From the IMG/VR virus record IMGVR_UViG_3300047552_000690, positions 1 to 23,577 of that record: a stretch of DNA of 23,577 bases. The stretch is one strand, 5' to 3'. The notes beneath the pieces were generated by a model, which searched no databases, was not told where the DNA came from, and saw nothing but the letters and a program-made list of their open reading frames with translations. Source of the DNA: a virus. Both the position numbers and the translations under genes were made by a program. Shown in pieces: positions 2,017 through 17,677 of this stretch. Numbering within the stretch: the first letter of the stretch is position 1; every line of letters begins with the position of its first letter.

Positions 2017-2429
2017 TGGGTGCGGCACCCGTCTACATGACAACGGCCTGTGTGGCCCGGGCCAGCGTATCAACCGCCAACACGAATAGGGACGGCACCG
2101 GAACTCTTGCCACCCCAACATGGGGTGGATCCGGTGGTGCTGGTGCACCCATCACAGACTGGCAACTCAAACGAATCATCCTGTCTCAAACCGGTGACCT
2201 GGCTGACAGTGTTCTCACCATATTCACAACGGATGGTTCTACAATCAATTTCCTCACAGATGTCGACCTGGCAAATCCGGCGGCAGCCAGCACGACAGCA
2301 TCTGGATTCATGTACGAAATTCCATTCGTTGAGCACCTGTTCCCTGCCAACTGGGACATCCGTTTCGGAATCACCGTGGCACCAACGAGCGGAGCATGCA
2401 TCGTGCATGCTTTCTGCGAACGGGCATAG
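2016..2429 (+). CDS. Virion/tail protein, beta-rich
   Basis: This 137-residue protein starts at ATG 2016, sharing one base with the upstream stop. It shows ANTNRDGTGTLATPTWGG followed by alternating hydrophobic strands (TDWQLKRIILSQTGD, SVLTIFTTDGSTINFL) and a final strand pair (NWDIRFGITV, ACIVHAFCERA). Short one-domain proteins with an NTNRDGTG-like opening occur in many phage adsorption modules. Exact function is unknown, and a role as a fibre-attachment or receptor-contact domain is inferred from context. From about here base composition shifts toward lower GC. Confidence 0.5.
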   Translation: MGAAPVYMTTACVARASVSTANTNRDGTGTLATPTWGGSGGAGAPITDWQLKRIILSQTGDLADSVLTIFTTDGSTINFLTDVDLANPAAASTTASGFMYEIPFVEHLFPANWDIRFGITVAPTSGACIVHAFCERA

Positions 2430-2430
2430 C

Positions 2431-3240
2431 ATGCCAATAGAGCAGATCAAAACATCCAGGTCTGGCATAGGGCCTGGTAGTGGGGTAAACACAAAAGCAT
2501 CTGGCAGATACTCCACCGCACTAGGGTATGGGACAAATGCGCGTGGAGCCTACTCCACAGTAAGTGGAAACTCCGGAGTGGCCAGCGGAGAAAATGCTAC
2601 CGCCTCCGGGAACGCATGCACGGCAAGTGGCGGCAACTCCTTCGCAGTCGGATCATATTCAACTGCCAGCGGCGCATATTCCGCGGCTATCGGATACCTC
2701 ACCGCATCGTCCGGACTGGCCTCTTTTTCCACCGGAAACGGAAGCGCCGCATCCGGATCGTACTCTGTCGCAACCGGATATCAATCAAACGCGACCAGAT
2801 ATGCCCAGGCAAGTCACTCTGGCTCGTATTTCTCGACAAAAGGCGACGCACAAAACAGCAGATTTGTACTATCCGCACAAACAACAGACGCCACACCAAC
2901 AGAACTATCAATCTCCAGCAACATCTACTACATCGACATTGGCGCAACAAGAACAATGTCCTGCGAAATAAAAATCGCAGCACACCGCACAGACGTGTCA
3001 GGCACAGCAGCAGCATGGCCAAGCATCACCTGCGGAATAACCAGAGACGCTACAGGAAACTGCAGACTCCTCGGCACACCAACGGGAGCCGGCACAACAA
3101 CATTCTGCGACGCAGGCGCAACCACCTGGAGTGTTGCAATAACAGCACCAACAAGCAACCGCCTAGCAATAACAGTGACAGGAGAAGCAGACAAAACCAT
3201 CCGCTGGGTTGCATCAGTAGACATGGCAGAAGTCGGATAG
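2431..3240 (+). CDS. YadA-like tail fibre with heptad Gly/Ser repeats
   Basis: This 269-residue protein begins at ATG 2431, one base after the previous stop. Residues 19-123 are fourteen consecutive 7-residue units of the type x-Y-S-T-A-S-G (for example RYSTALG, SYSTASG, AYSAAIG). This is the pattern of the left-handed beta-roll in YadA/Hia-type trimeric adhesin heads. A linker (RYAQASHSGSYFSTKGDAQN) leads to a beta-rich C-terminal domain of about 125 residues ending IRWVASVDMAEVG, an ending seen in phage fibre tips. It is probably a trimeric tail fibre or spike used for adsorption. The gene has clearly lower GC and many A-ending codons (aca, gca, aga, ata) unlike its neighbours, which suggests acquisition from elsewhere. 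Confidence 0.7.
   Translation: MPIEQIKTSRSGIGPGSGVNTKASGRYSTALGYGTNARGAYSTVSGNSGVASGENATASGNACTASGGNSFAVGSYSTASGAYSAAIGYLTASSGLASFSTGNGSAASGSYSVATGYQSNATRYAQASHSGSYFSTKGDAQNSRFVLSAQTTDATPTELSISSNIYYIDIGATRTMSCEIKIAAHRTDVSGTAAAWPSITCGITRDATGNCRLLGTPTGAGTTTFCDAGATTWSVAITAPTSNRLAITVTGEADKTIRWVASVDMAEVG
2485..2799 (+). repeat. Fourteen tandem 7-residue (21-nt) YadA-type repeats
   Basis: Each 21-nt unit encodes a heptad ending in Gly (the last unit ends in Arg) with small residues at positions 3-6. The units are diverged at the DNA level but the Gly register is kept without gaps for 105 residues. Units include NSGVASG, ENATASG, NACTASG and NGSAASG. This is the repeat of the YadA head beta-roll. 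Confidence 0.7.
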
Positions 3241-3528: not shown

Positions 3529-4335
3529 ATGCTATGTGGGGCGACGCTAGCAGGAGCACCCCTCGCCGGACTCATCCCAGCCGCAACCAGCAGTGGACCA
3601 GCCAGCCAGGCCGTAGCTGACACCATCACCATAAGTGATGCCGCCACCAAAACCACCACCACCACCAGTGCCACAGCGGACAGCATCACAGCAGTCGACA
3701 CCGCCGCCCAGGCCACCCAAAACCCCCGCACCACCAGTGACACCCTCACCATCGCCGACACGTGCACCATCACCGTCACCCACACCCGCGCCACCACAGA
3801 CACCCTGACCGTGGGCGACGCAACCAGCAGAAGCATCACCACAGGCCGCACCACGGCGGACAGTGTCACCATCACAGACAGCGCCCTCGCCCAATCCGGG
3901 GCCATCCTCACCACCACCGACACACTCACCCCCAGCGACACGGCCACCCGAACCCTCGCAACCACCCGTGGCATCAGCGACCAGCTAGCCACCAGCGACC
4001 AAACCAGCCGAACAACCGCCGCATGGCGGGCCATCACCGACAGCCTCACCCTCGCCGACACAGCAGGCTCCGCGACCAGCACACCCCTCGCGGCAGCCGA
4101 TACCCTCACCGTTGCGGACGCGGCCAGCACCTCCGGAACCGGGCACACGCTCACCACAGCCGACACCCTCGCACTCGCCGCCCTAGCCAGCGCCCACACC
4201 GCGCTCACACGACTCACCAGCGACACCGTGCACCTCGTAGACGTCGCAACCACCCTCGGACCCGGGGCACGCACCACCCTCCACATACGCGTCGGCACCC
4301 CAACCACGGCATGGCACATAGGATGCGCCCGGTGA
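3529..4335 (+). CDS. Thr/Asp-rich repeat protein, eleven 20-residue units (putative fibre)
   Basis: This 268-residue protein starts at ATG 3529 behind GAGGGCGGTGG. Residues 1-30 are an Ala/Gly-rich leader. Residues 31-250 are eleven nearly gapless units of 20 residues (one of 21, one of 19). The consensus is D-T/S-L-T-hydrophobic-x-D-x-A-T, a variable Thr-rich stretch, then R-x-T-T. Residues 251-268 form a short tail (LHIRVGTPTTAWHIGCAR). Regular spacing with strand-like DTLTIAD cores suggests a repetitive beta structure, perhaps a fibre shaft, and the many Thr/Ser residues could be glycosylation sites. The leader is weakly hydrophobic but has no basic n-region, so I do not call a signal peptide. 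No characterised homologue is recognised. The stop overlaps the next start (GTGA). Confidence 0.7.
   Translation: MLCGATLAGAPLAGLIPAATSSGPASQAVADTITISDAATKTTTTTSATADSITAVDTAAQATQNPRTTSDTLTIADTCTITVTHTRATTDTLTVGDATSRSITTGRTTADSVTITDSALAQSGAILTTTDTLTPSDTATRTLATTRGISDQLATSDQTSRTTAAWRAITDSLTLADTAGSATSTPLAAADTLTVADAASTSGTGHTLTTADTLALAALASAHTALTRLTSDTVHLVDVATTLGPGARTTLHIRVGTPTTAWHIGCAR
3619..4278 (+). repeat. Eleven tandem 60-nt (20-residue) repeats
   Basis: Units begin at each D-[TS]-x-T motif: DTITISD, DSITAVD, DTLTIAD, DTLTVGD, DSVTITD, DTLTPSD, DQLATSD, DSLTLAD, DTLTVAD, DTLALAA, DTVHLVD. The protein register is almost perfect while the DNA is diverged and extremely C/A-rich on the coding strand. 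This depletes stop codons in other frames and on the opposite strand. Confidence 0.75.
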
Positions 4336-10936: not shown

Positions 10937-11059
10937 CCAGCCTCGTCCCGCACGCGTTGTGGGACGAGGTATCCCCTCGAACAGCTTCAGGCCCAGCACG
11001 GGGTGCGTGGGTCATACCGTCGTGCCCGGAAACCGGGCAGAAGTGAAGGACGTGAACAA
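10937..11059 (+). promoter_or_regulatory. Structured 123-nt leader of the capsid gene (three hairpins)
   Basis: The gap holds three successive stem-loops. The first pairs CCTCGTCCC (10941-10949) with GGGACGAGG (10961-10969), extendable by three pairs to a 5-nt loop. The second pairs 10991-10999 with 11003-11012 around a GGG loop, with one bulged G. The third pairs TGCCCGG (11023-11029) with CCGGGCA (11033-11039) around AAA. GAAGGA (11045-11050) then precedes the capsid ATG. The first hairpin starts 4 nt after the decoration stop and could be a terminator or processing site. No clear -35/-10 promoter is recognisable. Confidence 0.55.
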
Positions 11060-11995
11060 ATGCCCGGAACGTATCCCCCGGCGCCCGGAACCCTCTCCGG
11101 TGACCTTCTCACCATCCACCGGCTTTTGCAGTCGCCGACGCAGATCCGCCGCCGGCTGCGGACCCTCGCTGATCTGCGATTCGTAGCCGACCAGCTCCTG
11201 ACTCAGCGATTCCGCTCCTCGGGTGGGGCGGTGCTGTACGAGGTTTCCGAGCCGGTGTACAACGAGCGTGAGATCAGCGCCGTTACCCCTGGTGCCGAAT
11301 ACCCCAGGGACACGACCGCGAACGGCACTGCCGCGACCGCCGCTGTGTCCAAGTGGGGTCAGGCGGTTCGGGTCACCGACGAGAAGATCAAGCGCTCGGT
11401 GTACATGGGTGAGGAAGTCGACCGCAGTCTGCGGAAGCTCCTCAATACCGTCATCCGGAAAGTCGACCGGCTGACCATCGCGGCGATCGCAGCCGCCGTC
11501 ACCCAGACGCAGACTGCTACGGCGGTGTGGAGTGACCTGACCAGCGCGACGATCCTTCGGGACATTGAACGCGCTGTTGGTGTTGTTGAGGATCTGGATC
11601 AGGGCTACAAGCCGGACACGATCCTGATGTCTACCGGCCGGTACGCGGAGTTCGCGTCCGACGACAAAATCAACAACCTGCGGCGTCGGGAAACCACCGA
11701 AAACCCGGTGTACACCGGCGAGATCGAAGTGATTGCCGGGTTGACCATCCTCAAGACCAGTTCGGGGAATCTCCCCACCGACGACGTGTGGATCCTCGAC
11801 AGCAAGCAGCTCGGCGGGATGGCCGACGAGACCGAGGTCGACCCCGGATACACCGTCGCTGAGATGGGTGTGCAGGTTCAGACCGAACGGATCGCGAAGG
11901 CGGACGCGTGGGACATGTGGGCTAGGCGTCTCACCGTCCCGGTCGTGCAGGAGCCGGGTGCGGCGATCCGGATCACCAGCACGGCGGGTAGCTGA
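11060..11995 (+). CDS. Major capsid protein (HK97 fold)
   Basis: The start is ATG 11060 with GAAGGA upstream, giving 311 residues; the frame is open to 11003, but that segment is leader. The sequence fits an HK97-type actinophage capsid protein: N-arm (GTLSGDLLTIHRLLQSPTQI), an E-loop-like region (FRSSGGAVLYEVSEPVYNER, VTPGAEYPRD), a long spine helix (YMGEEVDRSLRKLLNTVIRK), P-domain and A-domain strands (GYKPDTILMSTGRYAEF, GLTILKTSSGNLPTDDVWIL) and the C-terminal strand AAIRIT. No separate long delta domain precedes it, matching a phage whose scaffold is encoded with the protease. The stop overlaps the next ATG. Confidence 0.9.
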   Translation: MPGTYPPAPGTLSGDLLTIHRLLQSPTQIRRRLRTLADLRFVADQLLTQRFRSSGGAVLYEVSEPVYNEREISAVTPGAEYPRDTTANGTAATAAVSKWGQAVRVTDEKIKRSVYMGEEVDRSLRKLLNTVIRKVDRLTIAAIAAAVTQTQTATAVWSDLTSATILRDIERAVGVVEDLDQGYKPDTILMSTGRYAEFASDDKINNLRRRETTENPVYTGEIEVIAGLTILKTSSGNLPTDDVWILDSKQLGGMADETEVDPGYTVAEMGVQVQTERIAKADAWDMWARRLTVPVVQEPGAAIRITSTAGS

Positions 11996-12444
11996 TGAGA
12001 CCCAAATACCGGGTTGTCGGCCACTACGCCACGGTGAAGACCGCGACCATGAACGGGCCGACGGTGGTCGGGCTCCTCAAAGGGGCACTACTGCCGCCGG
12101 ATGTTGAGCAGGCCACGATCGATCATCTGCTCGATGTTGGGCTGATCCTGCCCCTGCCCGGTGCTGTGGAACAGATCGGGCCGGGCTGGGACGCGCCGGA
12201 CCCTGGCAGCAACAGTAAGGAGCCAGTCACTCCTGATACCACAGGCTCCGGGGCCAACACGTCAGATGACGACCTGGAGAAACGCCGCGCGGAGGCTCGG
12301 GCGAAACTCCCCACGGACGGCTCGGCGCCGAAGCGAACCCACGGCCAACCGGTATGGGTCGAATACGCCGTCCGTGAGGGCTACGACCGTGCACAGGTCG
12401 AAGCGGCCACCAGGGACGAGCTGATCGAGCTCATGACCCGATGA
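11995..12444 (+). CDS. Head-tail connector-like protein with C-terminal SAP/Rho-N-like motif
   Basis: This 149-residue protein starts at ATG 11995, sharing one base with the capsid stop. The N-terminal half is compact (KYRVVGHYATVKTATMNGPT, LLPPDVEQATIDHLLDVGLI). A Ser/Pro/Asp linker at about 67-85 follows, then a basic helix (LEKRRAEARAKLP). The last 30 residues (VWVEYAVREGYDRAQVEAAT, then RDELIELMTR) resemble the short helix-extended-helix domains seen at the ends of phage head-tail proteins. Position directly after the capsid gene supports a neck or connector role. It is separated from the next gene by a strong GC hairpin. Confidence 0.55.
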   Translation: MRPKYRVVGHYATVKTATMNGPTVVGLLKGALLPPDVEQATIDHLLDVGLILPLPGAVEQIGPGWDAPDPGSNSKEPVTPDTTGSGANTSDDDLEKRRAEARAKLPTDGSAPKRTHGQPVWVEYAVREGYDRAQVEAATRDELIELMTR

Positions 12445-12450
12445 ATACCT

Positions 12451-12478
12451 GGGGCGGCGGTCGAGGCCCCGCCGCCCC
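12451..12478 (+). terminator. 10-bp GC hairpin after the head module
   Basis: GGGGCGGCGG (12451-12460) pairs perfectly with CCGCCGCCCC (12469-12478) around an 8-nt loop, 6 nt after the connector stop. No U-run follows (AACAATCTGGGG), so efficient intrinsic termination is uncertain. It may attenuate transcription into the glycosyltransferase cassette or protect the 3' end of a capsid-connector mRNA. Confidence 0.5.
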
Positions 12479-12496
12479 AACAATCTGGGGAGACCG

Positions 12497-13897
12497 ATGC
12501 TTGACCTGGTAATCCTGGTTCCCATGCTGGGTCGCCCCCACACGGTCGCCCCACTCGTAGAATCGATACGGGAGGCTACCCCGGGTGCGCGGGCGCTGTT
12601 TCTGGTATCCCCGGGTGACGATCATGTGCATGCGGCTGTCGATGAGGTGGATTGCGAGCGGCTGACGGTGCCGTTCGAGCCTGTCGGCGACTACGCCCGG
12701 AAAATCAACACCGGCTACCGGGCGACGACCGAACCACTCATCTTCACCGGTGCGTGCGACATTCTCTTTCACCGCGGGTGGTTCGAAGCTGCCATGGCCA
12801 AGCTTCGCTTCGGGGTCGGGGTGGTCGGAACCAACGACCTTGGTAATCCCCGCGTCATGGCCGGCCAGCACGCCACACACTTCCTCGTCACCAGGGCGTA
12901 CGCCAACCAGCACGGCACCATCGACCAGCCGGGGGCAATCTTCCACGAGGGATACCCCCACGAGTACTGCAATCCTCCAGAAGCGCCAGTGTGGATGGGC
13001 GACTTGACATTCCGTTCGCTGGGTGATGTGCGAGTCGGAGATCAGGTAATGGGATGGGAGCGGTTCACCCCAGACGGCAGCTCGTTCAGTCTCAACCGAC
13101 TCTGTACCGCCGAGGTGCTAGCAATATCGACGCGCCAGTCAGAGATAGTCAGGGTGTCCATGGAGTCCGGGCGCACATTCCGGTGCACCCCAGACCACAG
13201 GTGGTACAACGCTGTCTGGACGCCATCAGCCAACAAGCGTTGGGTCGACTATCCGCAATGGGTTACACCAAAGGTCGGGCGCACCTTGATGCACGTGGCT
13301 GATATGCCACCCCAGGTCCCGCCGGATCTTGAACGTATGGCCGGATGGCTCGGAGGAATCTACGACGGAGAGGGCTCATGGATCGAGATCGCACAGTGCC
13401 CTGTCGCCAACCCTGAGGTGCATGCGGCAATCTGTGCCGCGTTCGGCAAGCTCGACATAACGTACACAATCGGAAATAGAAAGAACTCCCACCATTTCAC
13501 CCTGACGGGCGGAAGGCAGGGGTATCTCAACTTTCTTCTTCGCTGTCAGCCGGTCAAACGACATTCGATTGCCAACAAGATAATTGGTGGCCGTAGGTTC
13601 GGCTTACGCGACAAAATTGTTTCAGTAGAGCCTGACGGTGCTGGCGACGTTGTATCAATGACGACGACAACCGGAAACTATGTTGCATGGGGCTACGCCT
13701 CAAAGAACTGCGACAATGAGCTCATCGGAACCGCGAAACACCGCGGCGCGTGGGCGATGGCGCTCGACTCCCACGTCGAACACCTCCACCCACACTGGGG
13801 GAAAGCCCCCACGGATGCGATCTACGACCAGCAGTCGCAGCGCATGACCACCGGCCGTGTGATCTTCAACCAGAGGAGACGGCTGTGGCGGGGGTGA
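12497..13897 (+). CDS. Intein-containing glycosyltransferase-like protein
   Basis: This 466-residue precursor starts at ATG 12497, 4 nt after GGGGAG (12487-12492). Extein parts are residues 1-157 and 405-466, which would splice to a 219-residue enzyme. The N-extein is GT-A-like: LDLVILVPMLGRPHTVAPLV, then GDYARKINTGYR, then IFTGACDILFHRGWFEAA, with D88 as the candidate metal/nucleotide acid. The C-extein continues CDNELIGTAKHRGAWA, then VEHLHPHWGKAP and a tail with DAIYDQQ, typical of phage glycosyltransferase-like proteins. The intein interrupts the conserved HEY-[C]DNE motif, so the enzyme should be inactive until spliced. It overlaps the next gene by 13 nt. Sugar donor and target are unknown. 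Confidence 0.85.
   Translation: MLDLVILVPMLGRPHTVAPLVESIREATPGARALFLVSPGDDHVHAAVDEVDCERLTVPFEPVGDYARKINTGYRATTEPLIFTGACDILFHRGWFEAAMAKLRFGVGVVGTNDLGNPRVMAGQHATHFLVTRAYANQHGTIDQPGAIFHEGYPHEYCNPPEAPVWMGDLTFRSLGDVRVGDQVMGWERFTPDGSSFSLNRLCTAEVLAISTRQSEIVRVSMESGRTFRCTPDHRWYNAVWTPSANKRWVDYPQWVTPKVGRTLMHVADMPPQVPPDLERMAGWLGGIYDGEGSWIEIAQCPVANPEVHAAICAAFGKLDITYTIGNRKNSHHFTLTGGRQGYLNFLLRCQPVKRHSIANKIIGGRRFGLRDKIVSVEPDGAGDVVSMTTTTGNYVAWGYASKNCDNELIGTAKHRGAWAMALDSHVEHLHPHWGKAPTDAIYDQQSQRMTTGRVIFNQRRRLWRG
12968..13708 (+). mobile_element. Intein, 247 aa, with single LAGLIDADG-type motif
   Basis: The insertion is in frame and carries Hint-domain blocks. Block A is Cys1 plus VWMGDLTFRSLGDVRVGDQV. Block B is GRTFRCTPDH with T74 and H77. 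Block F is DVVSMTTTTGNYVAWG. Block G is YASKN, ending at Asn247 with Cys as the +1 residue. One homing-endonuclease-like motif, LGGIYDGEGS (128-137), sits in an approximately 100-residue insert; no second motif is visible. The penultimate residue is Lys rather than the usual His. GC is visibly lower than in the flanking exteins, consistent with recent mobility. Confidence 0.88.
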
Positions 13898-14529
13898 CCA
13901 TTGCTGTCGCGACGTTTGGCGCCGACCACTGGCGGCAGGTGGCCGAACAGCACGCTCTCCCCTCGGCGTACGCCACGGGCGCCCCGGTCGTGTACGCACA
14001 CGGCGCCAGCATTCATGGCGCCCGGAACGCGTGCCTTGATCAGGTTAAAACCGAGCATGTGATCTACCTCGACGCGGACGACGAGCTCGAATCCGGCTAC
14101 CTAGACGCCATGGCAACAGTCGACGCCGACATTCGGGTGCCAGTCGTCCGCTACGTCACCAACCCCAACAGACTGCCCGCACCATCCATGCCGAAGGTCG
14201 TCGGCCACCACCACAGCTGTTCGGCAGAGTGCCTGCCCTGCGGGAACTGGATAGTCATCGGCGCCATGGCACGCACCAAACTCCTCCGCGACGTAGGCGG
14301 ATGGCGGGACTTCGGGTGGGAAGACTGGGACCTGTGGCTACGCTGCCACCTTGCCGGGGCCACCATCAAACCAGCCTCCGGCGCTGTCTACCGCGCCAAC
14401 GTCCACCCCAACTCCCGTGGCCGGTATACCGCTGAGGAGTCGCGACGCCATCACCTCGCCGTCGCTGAAGCTAACGGATTCAACATCGACGGTATCCCGC
14501 TCGCGGCCGGAAGGAAGATTCGTGTCTGA
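13885..14529 (+). CDS. GT2-family glycosyltransferase
   Basis: This 214-residue protein starts at GTG 13885, placed by GAGGAG (13873-13878), within the last codons of the upstream gene. It is a short GT-A glycosyltransferase: VTIAVATFGADHW at the N-terminus, GARNACLDQVKTEHVIYL, then the metal-binding DAD at residues 63-65 followed by DELESGYLD, and the base/acceptor motif GWEDWDLWLR (145-154). It lacks membrane helices, so it is likely cytosolic and acts on a protein or a soluble acceptor. The last 8 nt overlap the dehydratase gene. Confidence 0.85.
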   Translation: MAGVTIAVATFGADHWRQVAEQHALPSAYATGAPVVYAHGASIHGARNACLDQVKTEHVIYLDADDELESGYLDAMATVDADIRVPVVRYVTNPNRLPAPSMPKVVGHHHSCSAECLPCGNWIVIGAMARTKLLRDVGGWRDFGWEDWDLWLRCHLAGATIKPASGAVYRANVHPNSRGRYTAEESRRHHLAVAEANGFNIDGIPLAAGRKIRV

Positions 14530-15517
14530 CCTGGGGCGACTGTTGGGACGTGAGCCAATCAGCGTTGCTGTTGACGGCTCATACCTCGCTGGGCGGCGGG
14601 TGCTAGTCACCGGTGCTGGTGGTTCGATTGGCTCCGAGTTGTGTCGGCAGGTGTACCGGCATGGCCCAGAATTCCTTGTGATGCTTGGGCATGGCGAATC
14701 CACCCTGCTAGCCACCAATGCCACCGTCAACAACATGGGTACGCTGGCGCTCGCCGACCTACGCGACCGGCGGCGACTCTTCGACGTGTTCGCCGAGCAT
14801 AAACCGGATATCGTGTTTCACGCCGCAGCCCTCAAACATCAGCCCATCTTGGAACGTGAGCCGGCTGAGGCCGTCAAAACGAACGTGTGGGGCACCGCGA
14901 ACGTGCTGGCGGCTGCGGAGCAGGTCGGGGTGAAAACCCTCGTCAACGTCTCAACCGACAAGGCTTGCGATCCGACGTGCGTGCTCGGAGCGTCGAAGCG
15001 CATCGCTGAGCGCATGACTGCTTGGTACACGCCGCTGCGGTATGTGAGCGTCAGGTTCGGGAACGTCATCGGATCCCGCGGTTCGGTGCTGGGGGTGTTC
15101 GCGCGGCAGCTGGCCGATGGGGGCACGCTCACCATCACCAGCCCTGACGTCGACCGATACTTCATGACCCCTGATGAGGCTGCGCAGCTGGTTATTCACG
15201 CTGGCGCGGTTGGTGACGCTGGTGAGGCCCTGGTGTTGGATATGGGATCCCCGGTGCGGATCGTTGACCTCGCCAAGCGCATGGCCCGGTTCATGGGCGT
15301 TGATGCGCCGGTTGTGTTCACCGGGCTGCGTCCGGGGGAGAAGCTTCACGAGCAGCTTATCGGGGTAGATGAGTGCCCGACGCGCCCACATCACCCACTG
15401 GTCGATCATGTTGTGGTTCCGCCGCTAGATCCGACCGCCGCCGCGAACATCAACATTAGTGATCCGGGGCGGCTCCGGGAAGCGCTTGGCATCCTCGCAA
15501 CCGGAGGTGCGGCGTGA
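14522..15517 (+). CDS. Soluble NAD-dependent nucleotide-sugar dehydratase/epimerase (CapD/PseB family)
   Basis: This 331-residue protein starts at GTG 14522 behind GGAAGGAAG (14509-14517). It is an extended short-chain dehydrogenase of the polysaccharide-biosynthesis (CapD/FlaA1/PseB) type: NAD-binding GAGGSIG (31-37), FHAAALKHQPILE (99-111), catalytic STDKA (144-148), GASKR (156-160), RFGNVIGSRGSVLGVF and GLRPGEKLHEQL. The usual Tyr of the active site is Leu155; in the WbpM/CapD branch this position is Met, so activity is still plausible. It has no N-terminal membrane helices, unlike host CapD/WbpM proteins. Expected chemistry is 4,6-dehydration or 4-epimerisation of a UDP-HexNAc; the exact product is not predictable. 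The stop overlaps the next start. Confidence 0.85.
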   Translation: MSDLGRLLGREPISVAVDGSYLAGRRVLVTGAGGSIGSELCRQVYRHGPEFLVMLGHGESTLLATNATVNNMGTLALADLRDRRRLFDVFAEHKPDIVFHAAALKHQPILEREPAEAVKTNVWGTANVLAAAEQVGVKTLVNVSTDKACDPTCVLGASKRIAERMTAWYTPLRYVSVRFGNVIGSRGSVLGVFARQLADGGTLTITSPDVDRYFMTPDEAAQLVIHAGAVGDAGEALVLDMGSPVRIVDLAKRMARFMGVDAPVVFTGLRPGEKLHEQLIGVDECPTRPHHPLVDHVVVPPLDPTAAANINISDPGRLREALGILATGGAA

Positions 15518-16221
15518 GCGTGGCACTGCTGATAATCACCGACGGCCGTGATGACTATCTGCAACAGTGCGTGGCCTCCGCAGACTCCCAGCTTGCTGGT
15601 GACATCGTCGAGCGGTGGATGTTCGACGACACCGGAGACCCTACCTATCGGGGCGGTCTCGCCCGCCGGTATCCGCAGTTCCGGCACATTGATGGTGGGT
15701 TTAGGCAGGGCTGTGCGGGTGCGATCCAGGCGGCGTGGCGGATCCTGCGGGAACGCAGCAATGCCCGGTTTGTGTTTCATCTGGAGCAGGACTTCGTGTT
15801 CACCCACCCCACCAACGTTGATCAGCTGATGGGCTTCCTTGACGACCATCCCGAATACGCGCAGGTAGCGCTACGCCGCCAGCCCTGCAACCCCCTGGAG
15901 GAGGCGGCCGGCGGGGTGGTCGAGCAGCATCCAGACTGGTACACCGACCATTGCGACACCAAGGGCCGGGCCTGGTTGGAACACTCCGCCTACTGGACCT
16001 GCAACCCGTGCCTGTACCGCACCGATCTGCTAACCATGGGCTGGCCTGGACACATTGACGGACGCTACAGCGAAGACACGTTCACCGAGACGCTCCGCCG
16101 CGACGGCACCCCGCAAATCAGCGGCGAGCGGGTGCGGTTCGCCTACTGGGGTGCGCGTGACTCCGGCGTGTGGGTGCGGCACATCGGACACCGCCGCCAC
16201 CAGCAAAGCAAGGACTACTGA
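15514..16221 (+). CDS. Glycosyltransferase-like protein
   Basis: This 235-residue protein starts at GTG 15514 (GTGA overlap) behind GGAGG (15503-15507). It has a GT-A-like layout: MSVALLIITDGRDDYLQQCV, a donor-side FHLEQDFVF with an E-x-D motif at residues 91-93, then NPCLYRTDLLTMGWP, and the acidic SEDTFTETLRRDGT that would be the catalytic/acceptor motif. GFRQGCAGAIQAAWRIL matches the helix that usually leads to the DxD motif. No membrane segment is present. Donor and acceptor are unknown. The next start overlaps the stop by one base. Confidence 0.75.
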   Translation: MSVALLIITDGRDDYLQQCVASADSQLAGDIVERWMFDDTGDPTYRGGLARRYPQFRHIDGGFRQGCAGAIQAAWRILRERSNARFVFHLEQDFVFTHPTNVDQLMGFLDDHPEYAQVALRRQPCNPLEEAAGGVVEQHPDWYTDHCDTKGRAWLEHSAYWTCNPCLYRTDLLTMGWPGHIDGRYSEDTFTETLRRDGTPQISGERVRFAYWGARDSGVWVRHIGHRRHQQSKDY

Positions 16222-17006
16222 TGACCACCTTTGGGATCTCGATGGTCCGCGACGAAGCCGACGTGGTCGAAGGAACAATCCGTCACATGGCCGCCGAGGT
16301 GGACCACCTGATCGTCGCCGACAATCGGTCAACTGACGGCACCCGCAGCATCCTTGACCAGCTGGCACACGAGCTACCACTGACCGTCGTGGACGATCCC
16401 GACCCCGCCCACTACCAGGGCAGGAAAATGTCGGCCCTGGCGGAACGCGCTGGGGAGGCCGGTGCTGACTGGGTTGTGCCGTTCGACGCCGACGAACTGT
16501 GGTACTCGCCCCTTGGGCGGATCGCCGATGTGCTGGCGCTCGCCGTCGGAAACATCGCACCCGCAGACCTGTTCAACCACTGGTCGACCGCCGTAGACCC
16601 GCCCGGGGCGGACCCGTTCCGAACAATGGCGTGGCGTGACCAAAACCCGTCCCGGCTGCCGAAGGTCGCATTCCGGTGGCGGCGGGGAGCCACCCTCCAC
16701 GAGGGAAACCACGGCGTAGACCTCCCAGGGCATCCTCACCCCGCTGTGGTCCTGCTAGAGATCCGCCACTTCCCGTACCGGACGCCTGAGCAGTTCGCTC
16801 GCAAGGCGCAGCAGGGGGCGGCGGCGCTCGCCGCTACGACTCTCCCAGCTGGGGTGGGCGCACATTGGCGGCTGTACGCAGAGGCCGCCGACCGGCATGG
16901 GGTTGAAGCACTGCACGATCATTTCCGTCGCCACTTTTGGCACTTCGCCCCACTCGATTCGGGGCTGATCCACGATCCGGCACCCTACCTCCGGTGGAAC
17001 GGTTGA
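16221..17006 (+). CDS. GT2-family glycosyltransferase
   Basis: This 261-residue protein starts at ATG 16221, sharing one base with the preceding stop. Clear GT2 features are present: FGISMVRDEADVVEGTIRHM, the nucleotide-binding ADNRSTDGTRSILD (33-46), and the metal-binding DAD (89-91) in PFDADELWYSP. The C-terminal part contains GATLHEGNHGVD and IRHFPYRTPEQFARKAQQGA, as in LgtF/Glyco_tranf_2_4-type enzymes that act on peptides or sugars. It is complete for this family and probably active. It is coupled to the next gene through a TTGA overlap. Confidence 0.88.
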   Translation: MTTFGISMVRDEADVVEGTIRHMAAEVDHLIVADNRSTDGTRSILDQLAHELPLTVVDDPDPAHYQGRKMSALAERAGEAGADWVVPFDADELWYSPLGRIADVLALAVGNIAPADLFNHWSTAVDPPGADPFRTMAWRDQNPSRLPKVAFRWRRGATLHEGNHGVDLPGHPHPAVVLLEIRHFPYRTPEQFARKAQQGAAALAATTLPAGVGAHWRLYAEAADRHGVEALHDHFRRHFWHFAPLDSGLIHDPAPYLRWNG

Positions 17007-17677
17007 GCGTCGCGGTCATCATCCCGTGGCGGGGCGGATGCTCCCATCGGGAGCGGGCTCTGGAATGGGTGTGGGGCAGATGGGCCACCAACCATCCCGA
17101 ATGGCCAGTGTTGCTCGGCGCGGAACCAGATGGGCCGTGGTGCAAAGCTGATGCGGTAGTTGACGCACTGGCCCGCACGGATGCCGACACGATTGTGATC
17201 GCTGATGGGGATGTGTGGTGCGACTGGGTGGCTGACGCTGTTGCCGCCGTTGAGGCCGGCGCTAGGTGGGCGGTTCCGCACGGCAACGTGTGTCGGCTGG
17301 CTGAGGATGCCACTGCGGCGGTGTTGGGCGGTGATGCGCCGGGGGTTGTGTTGCCGGTAGAGCAGGCACCCTACCTTGGGGTTCCCGGCGGCGGGATTGT
17401 CGTCATACCAGCCGAAACATTCTGGTCTATCCCCCTGGATCCCCGCTTTCTGGGCTGGGGTGGTGAGGACGAGGCGTGGGGGCTGGCCCTGGAAAAGCTC
17501 GTCGGCTCACCATGGCGGGGCGCCATGCCGCTGTACCACCTGTGGCATCCGCCGCAGCCGCGCCGAAACCGCCATGTTGGATCACCGCAGAATCAGGCCC
17601 TGCTGGTCAGGTATCAAACCGTGCGCACCCCAGACGGGATGCGGTCCCTGGTTGACGAGGCGAGGAGAATGCTTTGA
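17003..17677 (+). CDS. Galactosyltransferase-like GT-A protein
   Basis: This 224-residue protein is placed at TTG 17003, overlapping the stop before it; an in-frame GTG at 16994 is an alternative. It begins SVAVIIPWRGGCSHRERALE, has a DGD metal-binding motif (68-70) in VIADGDVWCDWV, and carries GWGGEDEAWGLAL (151-163). The latter matches the GWGxEDxE signature of the Glyco_transf_7C galactosyl/GalNAc-transferase domain. PLYHLWHPPQPRRN (176-189) supplies the His-containing C-terminal motif of the same group. It is the last gene of the glycosyltransferase cassette, and its stop overlaps the adaptor start (TTGA). Confidence 0.82.
   Translation: MSVAVIIPWRGGCSHRERALEWVWGRWATNHPEWPVLLGAEPDGPWCKADAVVDALARTDADTIVIADGDVWCDWVADAVAAVEAGARWAVPHGNVCRLAEDATAAVLGGDAPGVVLPVEQAPYLGVPGGGIVVIPAETFWSIPLDPRFLGWGGEDEAWGLALEKLVGSPWRGAMPLYHLWHPPQPRRNRHVGSPQNQALLVRYQTVRTPDGMRSLVDEARRML

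Follow-up and report, generated by a model that had tools for sequence, protein, structure and literature searches.

A class 1-type intein with a single predicted LAGLIDADG unit in a glycosyltransferase-like gene of a metagenomic phage contig

Why would a glycosyltransferase-like gene close to the capsid gene of a phage be interrupted, in frame, by 247 residues with the marks of a protein-splicing element? The gene occupies positions 12497-13897 of the window, by which we mean the whole stretch of DNA analysed: a complete IMG/VR virus record, 23,577 bases long, from a metagenomic viral contig that is probably a genome fragment. The gene and its parts lie on the + strand, and an open reading frame check found its 466 codons open throughout, with no interruption. 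The original prediction had placed a 247-residue in-frame intein at 12968-13708, and these coordinates proved exact to the base: the insert spans codons 158-404, from Cys1 (TGC, 12968-12970) to Asn247 (AAC, 13706-13708), and is followed by the Cys+1 codon (13709-13711). The predicted blocks A, B, and F/G and the LAGLIDADG-like motif are also present. Upstream lies a 157-residue N-extein (12497-12967) that contains the invariant D88 and is 71% identical to intein-free L042/L004; downstream lies a 62-residue C-extein (13709-13894) that begins with Cys+1 and continues with D-N-E (13712-13720), including the family-invariant D158 and E160. The precursor has relatives of both parts, and the reading we favor, at a probability of roughly 0.93, is that a class 1-type intein with an endonuclease of its own sits within a GT2-like glycosyltransferase of a phage, its anatomy pointing to both splicing and homing.

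The splicing motifs of the insert are those of class 1 inteins. Alignment of relatives places block A (CNPPEAPVWMGDL) at 12968-13006 and block B (GRTFRCTPDHRW) at 13169-13204, the latter reading G68...CTPDHRW79 with T74xxH77 included, while alignments and the structural model place the C-terminal splicing strands at 13604-13708, with block F/G (GNYVAWGYASKN) and the ending NYVAWGYASKN. The class 1 residue set (C1, T74xxH77, N247, and C+1) is complete, and in 45 aligned intein relatives C1, G24, G68, H77, D133, G134, G136, Q143, G242, and N247 are invariant, with E135 kept in at least 90%. The penultimate residue is Lys246, where histidine is common in class 1 inteins, although not universal and not strictly required; because K, S, R, or A stands at this position in most aligned relatives too, we do not count Lys246 as excluding class 1. 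Searched alone with tblastn, as the original prediction had proposed, the insert matched full-length inteins in 153 phage records at 27-39% identity over 247 residues (best match E 2e-41, 38.8% identity), and these end-to-end matches exclude chance as the origin of the motifs. The annotated hosts among these records are portal proteins, terminases, hypothetical proteins, and a radical-SAM-like protein, and one matched gene is already annotated as an 'intein-containing portal protein'. The NCBIfam intein_Nterm model matches the insert weakly (E 0.006). The best named-family match is NF038136 (Rv2578c-type radical SAM; ORF residues 156-405, E 5e-11), an intein family with a different host protein; since the insert lacks the host part of that model, this match falls far under the NF038136 cut-off. 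By sequence similarity, the insert is a member of an actinophage intein family otherwise seated in terminase, portal, helicase, and similar genes. Two portal-protein inteins of the same family (L036 2660-3184 and L039 3001-3513; 171-175 aa) apparently lack the endonuclease part.

An AlphaFold2 model of the insert alone (pLDDT 95.3) has a Hint splicing domain enclosing one LAGLIDADG unit. VIA-align gives Z scores of 18.3, 18.2, and 18.1 to BIL2, DnaB, and gp41-1 (rmsd 1.5-1.7 Å over 119-128 residues), and the RecA intein is also structurally similar to the model (Z about 18). About 95 residues separate blocks B and F and hold one motif, WLGGIYDGEGS (residues 127-137; 13346-13378), which contains the acidic E135 and is conserved in the 45 relatives. 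The endonuclease unit, at about residues 112-207 (13301-13588), was delimited from predicted element order and profile matches: the model has helix 119-135, then strand 140-143, helix 149-161, strands 166-171 and 174-179, and helix 182-193, and model and alignment together give both a helix 119-135 ending in an acidic residue and the alpha-beta-beta-alpha-beta-beta-alpha order of LAGLIDADG units. A profile search of the PDB matched I-CvuI (E 0.16, residues 112-209) and I-MsoI (E 0.001), as well as 1dq3, 2dch, and two-motif intein endonucleases, all weakly; as a single sequence, the insert gave only chance matches to the PDB. I-CreI, I-MsoI, and I-CvuI have one motif and the same element order as the window's unit, but they are stand-alone or intron-encoded, whereas the window's unit sits inside a Hint domain. 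Neither the insert nor any aligned relative has a second LAGLIDADG motif. Single-motif LAGLIDADG units work as homodimers, and we assume a single-motif, homodimeric endonuclease here rather than a two-motif monomer.

The endonuclease might, however, no longer cut DNA, leaving an intein that still splices but spreads as a passenger by ordinary recombination only. The lone motif is in keeping with such a passenger, as is the lack of a clear palindromic target: at 36 insertion sites, no dyad symmetry or palindrome stood out of the kind that a homodimeric cutter would favor. Selection and conservation point the other way, since E135 and the motif are conserved in the intein family and the endonuclease is about as constrained (dN/dS 0.235/1.99) as the Hint domain (0.194/1.95), with a ratio of about 0.11 for the whole intein. 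Judged from these substitution rates, both parts look constrained.

The flanks, joined in silico, form a 219-residue extein, and a separate search with it found relatives at 45-71% identity in five viral contigs. The same extein had no match in isolated phage and plasmid collections, nor did the two extein halves of L009 joined in swapped order. A wider host search, from which the best 80 of 173 relatives were kept, was supplemented with three genome contigs, including one of Parafrankia soli. All 85 host relatives checked read through without an intein, with 0 bp between the two host halves where the insert would fall (for example, L042 4001-4465 and 4466-4645), and many of them share the window's order of capsid, connector, and glycosyltransferase genes. 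These uninterrupted homologues bear on the idea that the 247 residues are simply an extra domain of the glycosyltransferase. Such a domain would likewise be in frame and constrained, but absence from 85 homologues at a gapless junction refutes the notion of an ordinary domain present in all members, and the insert moreover has a Hint fold and relatives in unrelated host genes, so we give this explanation practically no credence.

The host was predicted to be glycosyltransferase-like, and structural modeling bears this out. L005, a relative that lacks the intein, was modeled (pLDDT 95.5) and has a GT-A fold with Z scores of 17-18 to PcManGT, SpsA, RmlT, and WrtF (mannosyl-, rhamnosyl-, fucosyl-, and SpsA-type transferases), and on this modeled fold the host is a family-2-like glycosyltransferase; the Pfam Glycos_transf_2 match to the host (16.7 bits, under the cut-off of 23.3; E 0.0072) is no more than suggestive. 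The intein enters the host in the opening turn of helix 154-167, one residue ahead of D158. All 61 host sequences compared share D158 and E160, and the acidic D87/D88 region is invariant as well; the place of D158/E160 in the GT2 fold suggests a catalytic role for this pair. Seated directly before D158-x-E160, the intein would be expected to keep the enzyme inactive ahead of splicing, and on this position activity likely depends on splicing, as originally proposed. The description of the site as a split HEY-[C]DNE motif was right in assigning the cysteine to a host residue position, but that residue is usually valine: the 85 intein-free relatives have V in 73, C in 9, I in 2, and T in 1. An intein beside acidic residues that do not vary, using Cys1 and Cys+1 as its nucleophiles, could also serve as a conditional switch that silences the glycosyltransferase before late infection or until a redox or temperature cue arrives. 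This suggestion draws on position alone, and the sporadic presence of the intein and the empty alleles in syntenic phages argue against a regulatory role that the phage needs; conditional splicing seems improbable.

How did the favored class 1-type intein reach this gene? A junction-pattern search found three further viral contigs, those of L009, L011, and L125, with an intein at the identical residue; L171, also matched by the pattern, proved to be an unrelated chance match. The inteins of L009 and L011 are each 74% identical to the window's (L011 over the first 142 residues, where the contig ends) and that of L125 is 55% identical, while extein identity to the window's is 40-46% for L009, L125, and L011 (N-extein only), with 44-46% given for L009 and L125, and 71% for the intein-free L042. 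The hosts of L009 and L011 are 66% identical to each other and each 40-42% identical to the window host, with the three inteins mutually 74-75% identical. In the intein tree the four same-site inteins form one clade (support 100/98), whereas the host tree requires four state changes and rejects the carriers as one clade (p-AU 2.2e-10). Same-site homing, or some other horizontal route, would produce such discordance, and these trees indicate that a single glycosyltransferase site is subject to repeated horizontal invasion. More carriers may exist among the host relatives, since only the best 80 of 173 were kept. We rejected the argument that intein identity exceeding extein identity proves recent transfer because synonymous sites are near saturation: dS is near its limit, and pS is 0.70 in the intein, not lower than the 0.58 in the extein. 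Part of the high intein identity therefore comes from constraint, and the transfers could be old. The intein also differs in composition from its flanking exteins (GC 0.565 versus 0.637 and 0.656; GC3 0.64 versus 0.77 and 0.85). The 92-kb virus contig that contains the L125 glycosyltransferase intein (IMGVR_UViG_3300044814_000107) has a second intein of the family, L015 2290-4056, in a host protein without a PHROG match, and the two are not mutual closest relatives.

The three independent contigs with the same site occupied, together with the perfect frame and exact junctions, leave almost no room for an assembly chimera of an intein fragment and a glycosyltransferase gene, an artifact that would be conceivable given the metagenomic source of the contig. 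They also bear on the non-cutting passenger, for which the ratio of 4 carriers to 85 empty alleles among the relatives checked may speak; same-site invasion of distant hosts is, however, a mark of homing, and we regard a passenger spread by recombination only as possible but unlikely.

Under the favored reading of a splicing and homing intein, the precursor would be made whole and Cys1 would attack the preceding peptide bond. Cys+1 would then take over the N-extein and Asn247 would cyclize, releasing the intein and leaving a 219-residue enzyme with an intact ...HEY-CDNE... helix. Two copies of the released intein, needed for cutting because single-motif units act as homodimers, would cut an intein-free allele in a co-infecting phage, and repair of the cut allele would copy the intein in.

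The host gene follows the genes for a major capsid protein (11003-11995, + strand; PHROGs 1650, E 3e-78) and a head-tail connector (11995-12444, + strand; PHROGs 2322, E 2e-12), and it heads a run of glycosyltransferase-like genes, with four more of these and a Polysacc_synt_2 (sugar dehydratase/epimerase) gene at 13885-17677 (+ strand). L042 and L047 keep the order of pre-capsid gene, capsid, connector, GT1, and GT2, with the GT1 halves gapless. The cassette of capsid, connector, and five glycosyltransferases (window 11003-17677; L042-L121) recurs in dozens of intein-free contigs from uncultured phages and in one from Parafrankia. By capsid protein, the nearest isolated relatives are Gordonia phages, at 47%. 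Because the glycosyltransferase cassette adjoins the capsid gene, it is a reasonable guess that the enzyme helps glycosylate the virion. One broader scenario is a long shot: an intein lineage with a single-motif, homodimeric endonuclease would have become specialized for one site in phage glycosyltransferases that decorate the virion and would pass between unrelated phages, with splicing timing the sugar decoration. Elsewhere in the window, positions 2050-3240, upstream of the terminase gene, encode a protein in which Pfam recognizes YadA head repeats (E 5e-10), possibly a fibre-like adhesin. The ORF at 3529-4335 (268 aa) is repetitive and rich in Thr, Ala, and Asp, with repeats such as TTDTLT, and has no Pfam match.

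Chitin synthase (CHS) is a family 2 glycosyltransferase. Fungal CHS is a known intein host (PMC5784728), a glycosyltransferase host as here but in a eukaryotic nuclear gene; the likeness drawn here is one of host class. The original view of a glycosyltransferase as an unusual intein host is qualified by the fungal case and holds for phages within the literature searched, mostly outside subscription journals, which yielded no glycosyltransferase of a phage with an intein. A survey of mycobacteriophage inteins lists 13 host groups with no glycosyltransferase among them, and in that work five terminase inteins spliced and two cut DNA (Kelley et al., 2016; PMC5050341). The actinophage inteins described there (portal, terminase-like, and C1 hypothetical) resemble the window's in aligning with it end to end, at 27-39% identity, in having a phage host, and in interrupting a conserved functional motif, but their hosts are nucleic-acid-handling or packaging proteins, and the BAKA and Bethlehem terminase inteins have a two-motif endonuclease where the window's has a single motif. 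The host gene and the insertion site appear unreported, and the single-motif endonuclease appears to be a further new point, in an otherwise ordinary mechanism.

Annotators who missed the intein would tend to list the gene as hypothetical or as a glycosyltransferase split in two. With one LAGLIDADG unit in a compact intein, pairing would be required for DNA cutting. The four carriers, the 85 empty alleles, and the syntenic relatives make a clean natural set for the study of intein site choice, and the hosts of phage inteins now include an enzyme that does not handle nucleic acids and probably decorates the virion.
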